This document shows, one piece after another, positions 18,385 to 22,146 of a DNA stretch of 41,966 nt. The first letter of the stretch is position 1. Each line of letters opens with the position of its first letter. The notes below the pieces were generated by a model. That model saw only the letters and a list, made by a program, of their open reading frames with translations. It was not told the DNA's origin and did not search any database. A program made the translations under genes and the position numbers. The stretch spans positions 1 to 41,966 of the forward strand of contig PUKE01000043.1 of NCBI GenBank assembly GCA_003550425.1, in the 5' to 3' direction. This DNA is from Nitriliruptoria bacterium (GTDB lineage Bacteria > Actinomycetota > Nitriliruptoria > Euzebyales > Egibacteraceae).

Positions 18385-19437
18385 TCACGTCCTCGGATCG
18401 ATCGGGGTCGGGGCGGGCGCGGGGAGGCGCTCGGCGGCGCGCAGCCGCGCCGAGCGGGCACGGGGGTTGCGGGCGACCTCGTCGGCGTCGGGACGCTCCG
18501 CGCCGCGGGTGAGCAGGCGCACGGTGGGCACGCGGCCACAGCCGCACACCGGCAGGTCGGGCGGGCAGACGCAGGCGTCCGCCGCCTCGGCCAGCGCCTG
18601 CTTGACCGGGCGGTCCTCGAGGGAGTGGTAGGCGAGCACGGCGAGCCGGCCGCCCCGGGCCTGCGGGGAGCCCGGGACGGCCAGGCGCGCGAGCGCCGGG
18701 GGAAGGACGGCACGCACGCGCTCCAGCTCGCCGTTGACCGCGATGCGCAGCGCCTGGAAGGTCCGGGTGGCCGGATGGCGCGGCCCATGCCGTGCCGGCG
18801 CGGGCACGGCGCCCGCGACCACCTCCGCCAGCTGCCCGGTGGTGCGCACCGGACGCGCGCGGACCAGCGCGCGGGCGATGCGGCGCGCGTGGCGCTCCTC
18901 GCCGAGCTCGCCCAGCAGCCGCGCCAGGGCGCGCTCGTCGAGGCGCTCGAGCAGCGCGTGGGCCGGCTCGCCGCCCGAGGGGTCCATCCGCAGGTCGAGC
19001 GGGCCGTCGGCGCGCAGCGAGAAGCCACGCTCGGGGCGGTCCAGCTGCAGCGAGGAGACGCCGAGGTCCAGCAGGATCCCGCGCACCGGGGGCGGCGCGT
19101 CGAGGACCTCCTCGAGGTCGGCGAGGACCTCGTCGAAGGCGCCGTGGACGAGCCGGACGCGGTCGCCGAGCCCGGCCAGGCGCTCCTCGGCCACCTCCAG
19201 GGCCTGCGCGTCGCGGTCGATGCCGAGCAGCGTCGCCTCGGGGTGCGAGGCCTCGAGCAGCGCCCGCGCATGGCCGCCGGCGCCGACCGTGCCATCGATC
19301 AGCAGACCCGGCTCGGGGCTGGCCAGCAGCCCGGTCACCCGCTCGCGCAGGACCGGCTCGTGGACGGGCTCATCGGGCTCGGCGCCGGATGCGCCGGATG
19401 CGCCGCGCGCCTCGGGCGGGGGCGGGGACGCGGGCAT
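18385..19437 (-). CDS. rsmH: 16S rRNA (cytosine1402-N4)-methyltransferase RsmH
   Basis: SAM-dependent methyltransferase of 350 residues (formerly MraW). Seen: HEPVL near the N-terminus, IDGTVGAGGHARALLE (SAM loop), GIDRDAQAL, LLDLGVSSLQLDRPERGFS, ATRTFQALRIAVNGEL and YHSLEDRPVKQ. It methylates C1402 in the ribosomal P site. The N-terminus carries a GASGASGAEPDEP stretch encoded by short GGATGCGCC repeats. ATG shares a base with the mraZ stop (TGATG). An in-frame upstream extension inside mraZ was rejected. Confidence 0.95.
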   Translation of the reverse strand: MPASPPPPEARGASGASGAEPDEPVHEPVLRERVTGLLASPEPGLLIDGTVGAGGHARALLEASHPEATLLGIDRDAQALEVAEERLAGLGDRVRLVHGAFDEVLADLEEVLDAPPPVRGILLDLGVSSLQLDRPERGFSLRADGPLDLRMDPSGGEPAHALLERLDERALARLLGELGEERHARRIARALVRARPVRTTGQLAEVVAGAVPAPARHGPRHPATRTFQALRIAVNGELERVRAVLPPALARLAVPGSPQARGGRLAVLAYHSLEDRPVKQALAEAADACVCPPDLPVCGCGRVPTVRLLTRGAERPDADEVARNPRARSARLRAAERLPAPAPTPIDPRT

Positions 19438-19868
19438 CACAGCATCCCCTCCCCCAGCGGCTGGTCGGTGGCCGCGAAGCTCTCCATGGCCTGGGCCCGG
19501 TAGTCCTCCCAGCGGTCGCGATCCCACAGCTCGATCCGGCTGTCGGCCCCGATGACGGCGACGTCACGGGTCAGGCCGGCGTACTCGCGCAGCCGCGGCG
19601 GGATGGTGATGCGGCCCTGGTTGTCCAGCGCATCGGCATGCGCCGAGGAGGTGACCACCCGGGCGTACATCCGCTGCCGCGCGTCGGTGGGGCGCAGCTG
19701 GCGCAGCTCCTCGAGCACGCGCTGCCAGTCCGCGCGCGGGTGCAGCGTCAGGCAGTGGTCCTGGCCCACGGTCAGCACGAGCCCCTCCTCCAGCGGCTGG
19801 CGGAAGGCCGAGGGCAGGATCAGACGTCCCTTGGAGTCCAGCGTGTGCTGGTACTCCCCCAGGAACAT
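19437..19868 (-). CDS. mraZ: Transcriptional regulator MraZ
   Basis: Protein of 143 residues with two SpoVT/AbrB-type swapped-hairpin domains: MFLGEYQHTLDSKGRLILP at the start and a second copy around LDNQGRITIPPRLREYAG (about residues 70-90). MraZ forms ring-shaped oligomers that bind tandem direct repeats in its own promoter and represses the dcw operon in E. coli. The ATG is set by GAGGAG five or six bases upstream and by the conserved MFLGEY start. It is the first gene of the cluster, with phased repeats upstream. Confidence 0.96.
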   Translation of the reverse strand: MFLGEYQHTLDSKGRLILPSAFRQPLEEGLVLTVGQDHCLTLHPRADWQRVLEELRQLRPTDARQRMYARVVTSSAHADALDNQGRITIPPRLREYAGLTRDVAVIGADSRIELWDRDRWEDYRAQAMESFAATDQPLGEGML

Positions 19869-19942
19869 CGTGCGCTCCTCATGCCCCTCGCTGGTGAGTC
19901 CGCGTCCGCGTCCGGCCGCTGGCTCCACGACCGGACACGAGC

Positions 19943-19998
19943 CGCCACTGCTCTCCCTCGTCCTCCACTGCGCTCCACTTTAGACCACATCTCACCAC
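19943..19998 (-). promoter_or_regulatory. Phased MraZ-box-like direct repeats and mraZ promoter
   Basis: On the minus strand GTGGTG, GTGGTC, GTGGAG and GTGGAG start at exact 10-base steps with 4-base spacers (+ strand 19993, 19983, 19973, 19963). Weaker in-phase copies lie at 19953 (AGGGAG) and 19943 (GTGGCG). Known MraZ operators are direct repeats with 10-bp period (TGGGN-N5 in E. coli). A candidate -10, TAAAGT, lies at 19982-19977 between two boxes, so MraZ bound here would block RNA polymerase. The leader to mraZ would be about 100 bases. Confidence 0.7.
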
Positions 19999-20306
19999 AA
20001 CAGAAGCCCCCGAGCGGCCACGCACCCGACCCGGTGGCCAAGGATCGACCATCGCCGCAGGTCAGCGGGTCAGCGGCGGTGGTGGAGCGAGGTGGGGAGC
20101 GCGATCAGGCGGCCCGGCGACGCTCGCGCATGAGGCGCCGCTCCACGGGCCCTGCGCGGGCTCGACGCCCCGAGACGCCCCGAGTGGGGCGCGCCGAGCG
20201 GCGACCGCGGTCGGGGTGGGGAGCGAGGTGGGGCGTGGTGGGGCGGCGCGGGCGCCCCCTCACGGGCCGGCGGAGGGCCCCGGGCCTCCTCGAGCGTCCC
20301 CGCGCG
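19999..20306. other. Non-coding gap between hnh and the mraZ promoter
   Basis: No convincing gene is seen in this 308-bp stretch. It holds G-rich repeats on the + strand: GTGGAG/GTGGGG at 20082 and 20092 (10-bp step), and GTGGGG at 20184, 20216, 20228 and 20238 (last two a 10-bp step). A GC stem-loop lies at 20272-20289 just after the hnh stop. The open frames here have scrambled Arg/Ala/Pro composition typical of non-coding high-GC DNA. Confidence 0.6.
20272..20289 (-). terminator. Possible stem-loop after the HNH gene
   Basis: GGAGG (20272-20276) pairs with CCTCC (20285-20289) around a GC-only loop. It is 17 bases past the hnh stop. The short stem and lack of a T tract make this a weak call. 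Confidence 0.25.
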
Positions 20307-20975
20307 TCACACCGCCGGCCGTGCGAGGCGCGCCGGCGACGCGGCCTGCGCGGCGGCCGTCGCCCCGTCGACGTAGCGCGCCCAGTCAGGGTCGAGGCTG
20401 CCCACCGCCGCCACCAGCCACAGCGAGGGGCGCGGCGCCACCGGCGCGCGTGCCAGCCGCATGCCGGCCTCGCGCGGGGTGCGGTCCTCCTTGCGGCTGT
20501 TGCACCGCCGGCACGAGGCCACGACGTTCTCCCAGGCGTGCGCACCGCCCCGGCTGCGGGGCACGACGTGGTCCACGTTCTCGGCCCGAGCCCCGCAGTA
20601 CTGGCACCGCCCCCCATCGCGCGCGAAGACCCCGCGGCGGGTGAGCGTCACCCGATCCCGTCGCGGCACGGCCACGAAGCGCCGCAGCCGCACCACGGAG
20701 GGCACTGCCACCTCCATGCCCCCGCCACGACAGGGCGGGCCGGCGGCGTGGAGGACCTCGGCCTTGGCCTGCAGCACCAGCACCACGGCCCGACGCGCGG
20801 CCACGACCGACAGGGGCTCCATCGAGGCGTTGAGCACGAGCGCGCGGCCGCGCACGCCGTGGCGGTCGCCTCGCGCGTGGCCGCCGTCGCGGCGACCGTC
20901 GGCGTCGGCGAGCTCCGCGCTCGCGGGCGCTGGCGGTCCCCCGCGACCCTCGGCCTGACCTCGGCCTGGTCCCAC
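20307..20975 (-). CDS. HNH endonuclease
   Basis: Protein of 222 residues. The conserved part begins with RALVLNASMEPLSVVAARRAVVLVL (about 42-66), typical of a widespread actinobacterial HNH family. The nuclease region has CQYCG, VDHVVPRSRGG, WENVV and CRRCNSRK. The two CxxC pairs form a structural zinc site, and DH...N...N makes the beta-beta-alpha-metal core. The GTG at 20975 has GAGGAGG five bases upstream. A later GTG at 20855 would start right at the conserved part but has a poor ribosome site. Cellular role is unknown. It sits between the dcw operon and the divergent moxR operon and shows no linkage to a restriction or phage gene. Confidence 0.88.
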   Translation of the reverse strand: MGPGRGQAEGRGGPPAPASAELADADGRRDGGHARGDRHGVRGRALVLNASMEPLSVVAARRAVVLVLQAKAEVLHAAGPPCRGGGMEVAVPSVVRLRRFVAVPRRDRVTLTRRGVFARDGGRCQYCGARAENVDHVVPRSRGGAHAWENVVASCRRCNSRKEDRTPREAGMRLARAPVAPRPSLWLVAAVGSLDPDWARYVDGATAAAQAASPARLARPAV

Positions 20976-21013
20976 GCGGACCTCCTCGCGGCGGCACCGT
21001 CCGGAAGGCGCGA

Positions 21014-21091
21014 ACCGTGCGAGGCGCACGGTAGCAGCGCCCCTGACCGGTCCGCGGGCGGCTCCTGCGACCCTGGCGCGGCGGCTACCGT
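21014..21091. promoter_or_regulatory. Divergent promoter region with palindrome (hnh / moxR)
   Basis: A perfect inverted repeat ACCGTGC-GAGGC-GCACGGT spans 21014-21032. Candidate -10 hexamers TACCGT occur on the minus strand at 21033-21028 (toward hnh, overlapping the palindrome) and on the + strand at 21086-21091 (toward moxR, 42 bases before its start). Both are preceded by GC. The palindrome could be an operator covering the hnh promoter. Confidence 0.4.
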
Positions 21092-21132
21092 GGTCCCAGC
21101 CCGCCTCAGCCGAGGCCGCGAAGGGGACGCCG

Positions 21133-22146
21133 GTGGCAGCGAACGAGCGGTCGAGCGGCGAGGTCGAGCAGCTCGCCGCCGAGATGGAGCGGGTCGAGCG
21201 CTCGGTGCGCTCGGTCCTGGAGGGCAAGCCGGAGGTGATCCGGCTGGTGCTGGTGAGCCTGCTCGCCGGTGGGCACGTGCTGCTCGAGGACGTGCCGGGG
21301 GTGGGCAAAACGCTGCTGGCCAAGGCGATCGGCACCACGATCGACTGCAGCGTCAGCCGCGTCCAGTTCACCCCCGACCTGCTGCCCACCGACGTGACCG
21401 GCGTGACGGTCTACCAGCAGGAGAGCGGGGCGTTTCGCTTCCGCCCCGGCGCGGTGTTCGCCAACATCGTGCTGGGCGACGAGATCAACCGCGCTGGGCC
21501 CAAGACCCAGTCGGCGCTGCTGGAGGCCATGGAGGAGCGCCAGGTCACCGTCGACGGGACCACCCACGGGCTCCCCGACCCCTTCCTGGTCATCGCAACG
21601 CAGAACCCCGTGGAGCTCGAGGGGACCTATCCGCTGCCCGAGGCCCAGCGGGACCGGTTCCTGATGCGGCTGTCGATCGGCTACCCCTCCGCTGAGGCCG
21701 AGCTGGAGGTGCTGGAGGTCCACGGCGCGGGCGATCGCCTCGGGAGCCTCGCGCCGGTCACCGACGCCAGCGCGATCAGCCGGCTGCGGCGCGTCGCCGA
21801 GGGCGTGCACGCCGCCCCCGCGCTGCGGCGCTATCTCGTGGACGTGGTGCGCGCCACGCGGGAGCACCCCGCGGTGGAGCTCGGCGCCTCGCCGCGCGCG
21901 TCCCTGTCGCTGCTGCGGGCCGCGCGGGCCCTCGCGGCGATCAGCGGGCGCGACTTCGTGATCCCCGATGACGTCAAGGCGCTGGCGCTGCCGGTGCTGG
22001 CCCACCGCCTGGTGCTCGCCCCCGAGGCCCAGATGCGCGAGACCTCGGCCACCGGGGTGATCCAGGAGGTGCTGGGCTCCGTGGCGGTGCCGAGCCCCGA
22101 GCGACCGTCGGGCGGCCGTCGACGCGCCGCGGGCGCCCAGGGCTGA
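21133..22146 (+). CDS. MoxR family AAA+ ATPase
   Basis: ATPase of 337 residues. Walker A is VPGVGKT (Lys59), Walker B region LGDEINRAGPKTQSALLEAM, followed by TQNPVELEGTYPLPEAQRDRF with sensor and Arg-finger residues (about 153-176). MoxR ATPases act as chaperones, often assembling or activating complexes encoded by adjacent DUF58/vWA genes. The GTG start has AAGGGGA upstream. The stop overlaps the next ATG (TGATG), so it forms an operon with the DUF58 and transglutaminase genes. Confidence 0.95.
   Translation: MAANERSSGEVEQLAAEMERVERSVRSVLEGKPEVIRLVLVSLLAGGHVLLEDVPGVGKTLLAKAIGTTIDCSVSRVQFTPDLLPTDVTGVTVYQQESGAFRFRPGAVFANIVLGDEINRAGPKTQSALLEAMEERQVTVDGTTHGLPDPFLVIATQNPVELEGTYPLPEAQRDRFLMRLSIGYPSAEAELEVLEVHGAGDRLGSLAPVTDASAISRLRRVAEGVHAAPALRRYLVDVVRATREHPAVELGASPRASLSLLRAARALAAISGRDFVIPDDVKALALPVLAHRLVLAPEAQMRETSATGVIQEVLGSVAVPSPERPSGGRRRAAGAQG

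Follow-up and report, generated by a model that had tools for sequence, protein, structure and literature searches.

Do the short repeats that precede mraZ in this Nitriliruptoria bacterium form an ordinary operator of the MraZ regulator, and are they the only candidate MraZ sites at the locus? We addressed this in a stretch of 41,966 nucleotides, referred to here as the window, and in the upstream regions of mraZ in other genomes.

The mraZ promoter array in the window and elsewhere

The mraZ gene (19437..19868, minus strand) was predicted to encode a division/cell wall cluster regulator of 143 aa (TIGR00242, E 1.9e-36, 125.1 bits versus a cut-off of 98.35), residues 1-127 and 1-130 of which could be aligned with the solved MraZ chains 1n0e and 9qlr. 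The predicted protein contains two DXXXR motifs, DSKGR and DNQGR, a motif which we take to be important in MraZ; its nearest named relative, from a Nitriliruptoria bacterium (L049), is 93% identical. The second gene of the cluster, rsmH (mraW; 18385..19437, minus strand; TIGR00006, 277 bits), was taken from the ORF list, and its start is unsettled. Downstream of the array lies the head of the dcw cluster, in which mraZ and rsmH were identified by NCBIfam and the later cluster genes as ORFs only. No MraZ match (E 0.001) was found in G087, G164 and G183, three large genomes (7.9-9.7 Mb) of a single genus, from which MraZ is lost or absent.

Upstream of mraZ, at a distance of 95-130 bp, four GTGG boxes were observed on the minus strand (19963-19998) in exact 10-bp steps, with their first bases at 19998, 19988, 19978, and 19968. 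These are box 1 (GTGGTG, 19993..19998), box 2 (GTGGTC, 19983..19988), box 3 (GTGGAG, 19973..19978), and box 4 (GTGGAG, 19963..19968). The array overlaps a putative promoter: box 3 lies within a -10-like hexamer, TAAAGT (19977..19982, minus strand), whose last two bases are the GT of the box, an overlap that was read from sequence and that is favoured by the score used for anchoring (see below). An earlier note on this DNA had described the four phased boxes and a TAAAGT under them, and both were recovered here, the hexamer at 19982-19977. The -35 position (20000..20005, minus strand), separated by a 17-bp spacer, is occupied by a weak TTCTGT, where TTGAC was found in 17/20 family members. This combination of a weak -35 (TTCTGT or TTCTCT) and a near-consensus -10 (TAAAGT) was characteristic of the genus of the window, including the sister species (L003), and was in the same register as in the family; the rest of the family has the TTGAC -35 in these 17/20 members and a -10 mostly poorer than TAAAGT.

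A run of four phased GTGG was present at a single place in the 2.9-Mb genome (352 contigs). Runs of three were found at three places, two of which overlap in the mraZ array; the third, located on another contig (G000:C25:2412-2435), is the sole other three-GTGG site with 10-bp steps and corresponds to a GTGGGGCCGC tandem repeat. Since the reversed pattern gave 4 places in the whole genome versus 3, the three-box run is at chance level, and no further regulon members can be claimed in this genome from such runs.

The class sample consisted of 66 genomes, of which 62 contained MraZ, yielding 62 loci; two of these (L127 and L133) had too little upstream DNA and were dropped, and 60 were analysed. 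Each promoter was anchored on the box best fitting a -10 and a -35 element, with a required run of at least two GTGG boxes, which all 60 promoters contained. A hexamer xAnnGT, with its GT provided by a GTGG box, was found in 60/60 anchored promoters, under a score that rewards the fit of the A and the GT, and TTG at -35 was found in 55/60, under a score that rewards TTG. In families f1 to f3, GTGG was present at the box 1 position in 25/29 promoters and at box 2 in 29/29, compared with 8/31 and 4/31 promoters, respectively, in families f4 and f5. Box 3, the anchor, is GTGG in 60/60 by construction, and box 4 is GTGG in 5/29 promoters of f1 to f3 (xTGG in 18/29) and in 29/31 of f4 and f5. The promoter of f1 and f2 could be summarised as TTGACaa-GTGGAG-N4-GTGGaG-N4-GTGGAG, with a fourth box that is usually xTGGAG, and that of f4 as TAGAGTGGaGCGAAGTGGAG, where in most cases only boxes 3 and 4 are present; these consensus sequences were built from 15/24 promoters of f1 and f2 (the others being too short or without a run of three) and from 30/31 of f4 and f5. 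Overall, 101 sense GTGG pairs at spacing 10 were counted in the 60 upstream regions. The expectation that the array would recur in related genomes was thus borne out, both by the run of at least two GTGG in all 60 class promoters and by the invariant box 2 of f1 to f3.

Downstream of box 4, weaker, broken or isolated copies were observed in the same 10-bp register (19923..19958, minus strand): box 5 (AGGGAG, 19958-19953), box 6 (GTGGCG, 19948-19943), box 7 (GTGTCC, 19938-19933), and box 8 (GTGGAG, 19928-19923). GTGG was found at these four positions in 3/29, 3/28, 0/19, and 1/15 promoters of f1 to f3, respectively; moreover, in the sister species, box 5 reads ACGGAG and box 6 is off by one base. 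Boxes 5 and 6, which the earlier note had listed as two weaker in-phase copies, are therefore present in the sequence but not conserved, and a downstream extension of the array through boxes 5-8 was discarded in the same way.

GTGG at 10-bp spacing was not confined to the class. In a mostly Bacillota set, formed from the 71 loci L050-L120 by keeping the 69 whose upstream region reached 300 bases or more (and retaining a few others, namely an Actinomycetes bacterium, a Coriobacteriales, and a Kerfeldbacteria), we counted 135 sense GTGG pairs at spacing 10, versus 7 TGGG pairs. An excess of sense GTGG spacings of 21, 31, and 41 (20, 20, and 22 counts) was also observed in these 69 loci, corresponding to a further box placed two helical turns (21 bp) past the third box. 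A mixed actinobacterial sample of 44 loci was drawn from 159 genomes, 24 of them as search results and 20 by choice, if possible with a single locus for each family. Seven of the 44 (L147, L150, L153, L154, L156, L170, and L177) lacked a sense 10-bp GTGG pair within 450 bp, so that exact GTGG is not universal.

Eraso et al. are said to have described, in 2014, the E. coli MraZ operator as three repeats with the consensus TGGGN. The putative operator of the window resembles that of E. coli in its apparent autoregulatory position at the first dcw promoter, its short direct repeats, and its 10-bp period. In contrast to the TGGGN core, boxes 1-4 of the window contain TGGTG, TGGTC, TGGAG, and TGGAG, none of which is TGGGN. 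The difference between TGGGN and GTGG is one between groups, concerns the last base, and is widely shared. The altered specificity that had been proposed for this lineage was rejected, since 10-bp spacing of GTGG was the rule in all four sets sampled at depth: in the class, in two further actinobacterial orders (A and B, see below), and in the mostly Bacillota upstream regions. In Burkholderia cenocepacia, according to the part of the publication consulted, a conserved GTG motif occurs past the -10, in four repeats of 7 nt separated by 3 nt (PMC7761207), and an excerpt on Mollicutes describes AAAGTG[T/G] repeats in the mraZ promoter region (PMC8475190). As far as these excerpts go, the GTG core is common to the window array and to both groups. 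With four repeats reported in Burkholderia too, in the same excerpt (PMC7761207), and with unconserved downstream copies, an array of extended length does not distinguish this lineage. What does hold is the identification as an MraZ operator-like array: it comprises four direct GTGG repeats, at least three being taken as typical, with a GTG core and a 10-bp period, at the right gene, overlapping the promoter and conserved throughout the class, and its run of four is unique in the genome. The repeats of the mraZ promoter are thus probably an ordinary MraZ switch.

Inverted box pairs upstream of the promoter

The unusual part of the region, located beyond the repeats covered by the earlier note, consists of inverted, helically phased box pairs. 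In the window, a putative proximal pair, GTGGAGCGAGGTGGGG, was found on the plus strand at 20082..20097, its centre 107 bp, or 10.2 turns, from box 3, and a putative distal pair, GTGGGGCGTGGTGGGG, at 20228..20243 (plus strand), its centre 253 bp, or 24.1 turns, from box 3. An inverted 10-bp GTGG pair was present upstream of the promoter, at most 450 bp from the start codon, in 56/60 class promoters, compared with 1.4/60 expected from dinucleotide shuffles and with sense-strand pairs in 6/60 for the same upstream stretch. A proximal pair, defined as nearer than 134 bp, was observed in 35 class promoters, a distal pair in 48, and both in 27. When all spacings on the opposite strand were considered in the 60 class regions, spacing 10 dominated (98 pairs), followed by spacing 3 (39 pairs, which are overlapping GTGGTGG) and spacing 13 (24 pairs).

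Inverted pairs were picked by two CCAC alone. Their consensus on the mraZ strand was CCCTCCACTTCGCACCACC for the proximal sites of f1 and f2 (20 sites), and the distal and f4 sites were alike; in all, 20 and 22 inverted sites of f1 and f2 and 10 and 29 of f4 and f5 were used. On the mraZ strand, the inverted sites read cccTCCACTTCGCxCCACC; reverse-complemented, this is the promoter operator of the sister family f4. Because selection used the two CCAC only, the conserved TTCGC spacer and flanks constitute independent evidence. Genome-wide, two-box sites were searched by the exact consensus word alone: GTGGWGCGAAGTGGAG was found in 26 copies in 24/66 class genomes, 16 sense and 10 inverted, none of which is farther than about 410 bp from an MraZ domain match, and its reversed control gave 0 copies in the 66 class genomes. 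The genome of the window contains 0 exact copies of GTGGWGCGAAGTGGAG, its own two pairs being deviant.

The mraZ promoters of the mostly Bacillota set resemble the window in carrying GTGG at 10 and 20 bp, but differ from it in that no inverted 10-bp GTGG pair was found within 350 bp in any of the 69 loci. Eight of the 44 mixed actinobacterial loci contained inverted pairs, as did 19/30 loci of order A and 29/33 of order B (48/63 together), a proportion that is no unbiased frequency, as these orders were chosen because pairs had been seen there. The loci used for these orders were those returned by the searches and those already in the sample: 30 from 61 genomes in order A, and 33 in order B, for which two overlapping searches had each covered 59 genomes and found MraZ in 56. 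Since no pair was found in 4/60 class genomes (L010, L128, L130, and L141) or in 11/30 order A loci, the inverted sites are not indispensable. In the sister species (L003), a short tandem array of alternating CCACCCGCT and CCACGGCGCT units was observed at the place of the distal inverted pair, about 310-380 bp ahead of mraZ, and is a possible source of spacing changes.

A further putative binding site, TGACCTGCG (20056..20064, minus strand in the window), was found to favour certain distances from the -10 box. When a single mismatch was tolerated, it was present in 20/60 class promoters (2 in one shuffle of each) and in 36/63 promoters of orders A and B (1 in one shuffle of each). Most matches (47/56) preceded the anchor by 84-87, 74-77, or 54-55 bp, that is, about whole turns apart. 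In many promoters of f1 to f3, this element adjoins the proximal inverted pair; it is perhaps an activator site.

Helical phasing of the inverted pairs

In the class, when periods between 6 and 20 were scanned, the spacing of the inverted pairs from the -10 fitted best at 10.5 (n = 96, R 0.63). The same period was obtained with one distance per genus (n = 72, R 0.58, p 4.4e-11 at 10.5), although this and the following Rayleigh p-values assume independence, and the genomes are related. Genus-unique distances peaked at 10.5 in f1 to f3 (n = 44, p 1.5e-8) and likewise in f4 and f5 (n = 28, p 6.6e-4), and the two groups had a nearly equal phase. Distal pairs alone gave a best period of 10.8 in the class (n = 49, p 1.2e-5 at 10.5); in the distal-only subsets, the best period was 10.9 in f1 to f3, and the signal was weak in f4 and f5 (n = 23, p 0.01). 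When f1 alone was considered with box 1 as anchor, the peak was at 11.3. No phasing was seen for single GTGG boxes on the strand of the inverted pairs (n = 163, R 0.10, p 0.18). The offset of the box centres from whole turns was 0.2 bp in the class; with centre distances this close to whole turns, the sense and inverted boxes are turned to one side of the helix.

A similar pattern was detected in orders A and B (n = 88, R 0.48 and p 2.2e-9 at 10.5, offset 0.6 bp), where the best period was 11.3 (R 0.60) and not 10.5. The 63 proximal distances of the class and both orders fell at 83-87, 93-97, 106-107, and 116-118, with none between. Altogether, 56/63 proximal and 83/121 distal distances were within 2 bp of whole turns, versus 38% by chance. 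Length differences within genera also favoured whole turns (53 overlapping comparisons, mean cosine 0.45); exceptions near half turns (3.5, 6.6, and 8.5 turns) were observed within genera g23 and g32.

A possible looping operator and its alternatives

LacI, GalR, and AraC are looping repressors with auxiliary upstream operators for the same protein, placed in helical phase. As helical phasing of distant operator copies typifies proteins that make contact over the intervening DNA, we read the inverted pairs as auxiliary operators: separated candidate sites for one protein are present in the sequence, and the spacing between them is helically phased. We consider it probable that the region upstream of mraZ is an autoregulatory operator in which the inverted pairs serve MraZ as auxiliary operators, share a DNA face with the array, and work by looping. 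Two kinds of site would make up the operator: the direct GTGG array, which covers the promoter and whose box 3 falls within the -10 element, and, farther upstream, one or two inverted sites of two boxes each, at about 80-120 bp and about 140-330 bp from box 3. An octameric MraZ ring on the promoter array would block RNA polymerase, and the inverted sites would be taken, perhaps cooperatively, by the same or a second ring. The DNA between the sites would then form a loop, or two rings would stack face to face, an arrangement that could account for the inverted polarity. Either would raise the local MraZ concentration and sharpen the repression of mraZ and the following genes as MraZ accumulates. 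Loops of 80-120 bp are stiff and may depend on a bend or on a second protein.

LacI, GalR, and AraC bind palindromes or half-site pairs as dimers, whereas the predicted MraZ sites are one-sided strings of boxes, with inverted polarity between groups, for a predicted AbrB-like ring binder. Elsewhere, MraZ is an octameric toroid of the AbrB-like superfamily, according to the part of the publication consulted (PMC7761207), and by analogy such a toroid would be expected to have spare binding faces. The excerpts concerning B. cenocepacia and Mollicutes (PMC7761207, PMC8475190) mention no inverted upstream sites, and we found no description of inverted or looped MraZ sites in the open-access literature searched (titles and starts of abstracts). 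These putative phased sites, found in the class and in two further high-GC Actinomycetota orders, thus appear to be undescribed in that literature.

Other explanations of the inverted pairs were considered. They might be upstream activator sites at which MraZ contacts RNA polymerase in phase, so that low MraZ activates and high MraZ represses. Class I activators, too, are expected to be in phase with the promoter, and the proximal pair adjoins the phased TGACCTGCG element in many promoters of f1 to f3; however, 140-330 bp is too far for direct contact without looping, and the promoter array lies over the -10, as for a repressor. We regard this activator reading as unlikely. The orientation of the pairs, which point away from mraZ, would also suit an operator of a divergent promoter or of an antisense RNA, and gene-like ORFs pointing away were indeed called, from a rough reading of composition, at 15/23 callable loci with pairs in order B and 6/13 in order A. 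In the class, however, the same rough call placed 43/49 callable upstream ORFs in the direction of mraZ, 40 of them with inverted pairs (11/60 being uncalled), and a divergent promoter is unlikely there. Furthermore, no -10-like hexamer was seen before the pairs in the consensus, an Rfam search of 19400-20800 found no RNA, and a divergent promoter would need no phasing to that of mraZ. Overall, an operator of this kind seems distinctly improbable.

The phasing also bears on the remaining alternatives. If the inverted pairs acted in a read-through RNA, forming with the promoter array an insulating or terminating hairpin, the complementarity of pair and array, which exists by construction, and the often codirectional upstream gene of the class would be accommodated, but RNA pairing predicts no helical steps in spacing, and we give this possibility very little credence. 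It is likewise improbable that the array alone is functional, as an ordinary MraZ array, the pairs being relics or decoys or having arisen as a by-product of composition in a G-rich region. The high G+C content and the CCAC-rich tandem array of the sister species would be in keeping with such an origin; against it stand the excess over shuffles that keep dinucleotides (56/60 versus 1.4 expected), the conservation of a spacer that was not selected for, and the lack of phase in single boxes.

The reading of the pairs as auxiliary operators that act by looping has a wider form, to which we attach about as much belief as disbelief: the MraZ of high-GC Actinomycetota may be a DNA-looping regulator, its rings joining array and inverted pairs at whole turns, and the TGACCTGCG element may belong to a second regulator that is displaced by the loop or cooperates with it. 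If so, MraZ must hold DNA at two points with opposite polarity, and division-gene promoters across a large phylum would include a conserved upstream control region. The spacing of the sites, set at half or full turns, would then provide a simple bench handle on MraZ action.

Finally, two features of the DNA upstream of the mraZ promoters were observed. A C[RK][RK]CN motif was found in a same-direction frame upstream of mraZ in 19/60 class loci versus 0/63 loci of orders A and B. In the window, an ORF upstream of and codirectional with mraZ (20307-21389, minus strand) contains an HNH-like stretch resembling the IscB and Cas9d models, with 48 bits, far under their cut-offs of 175 and 375.
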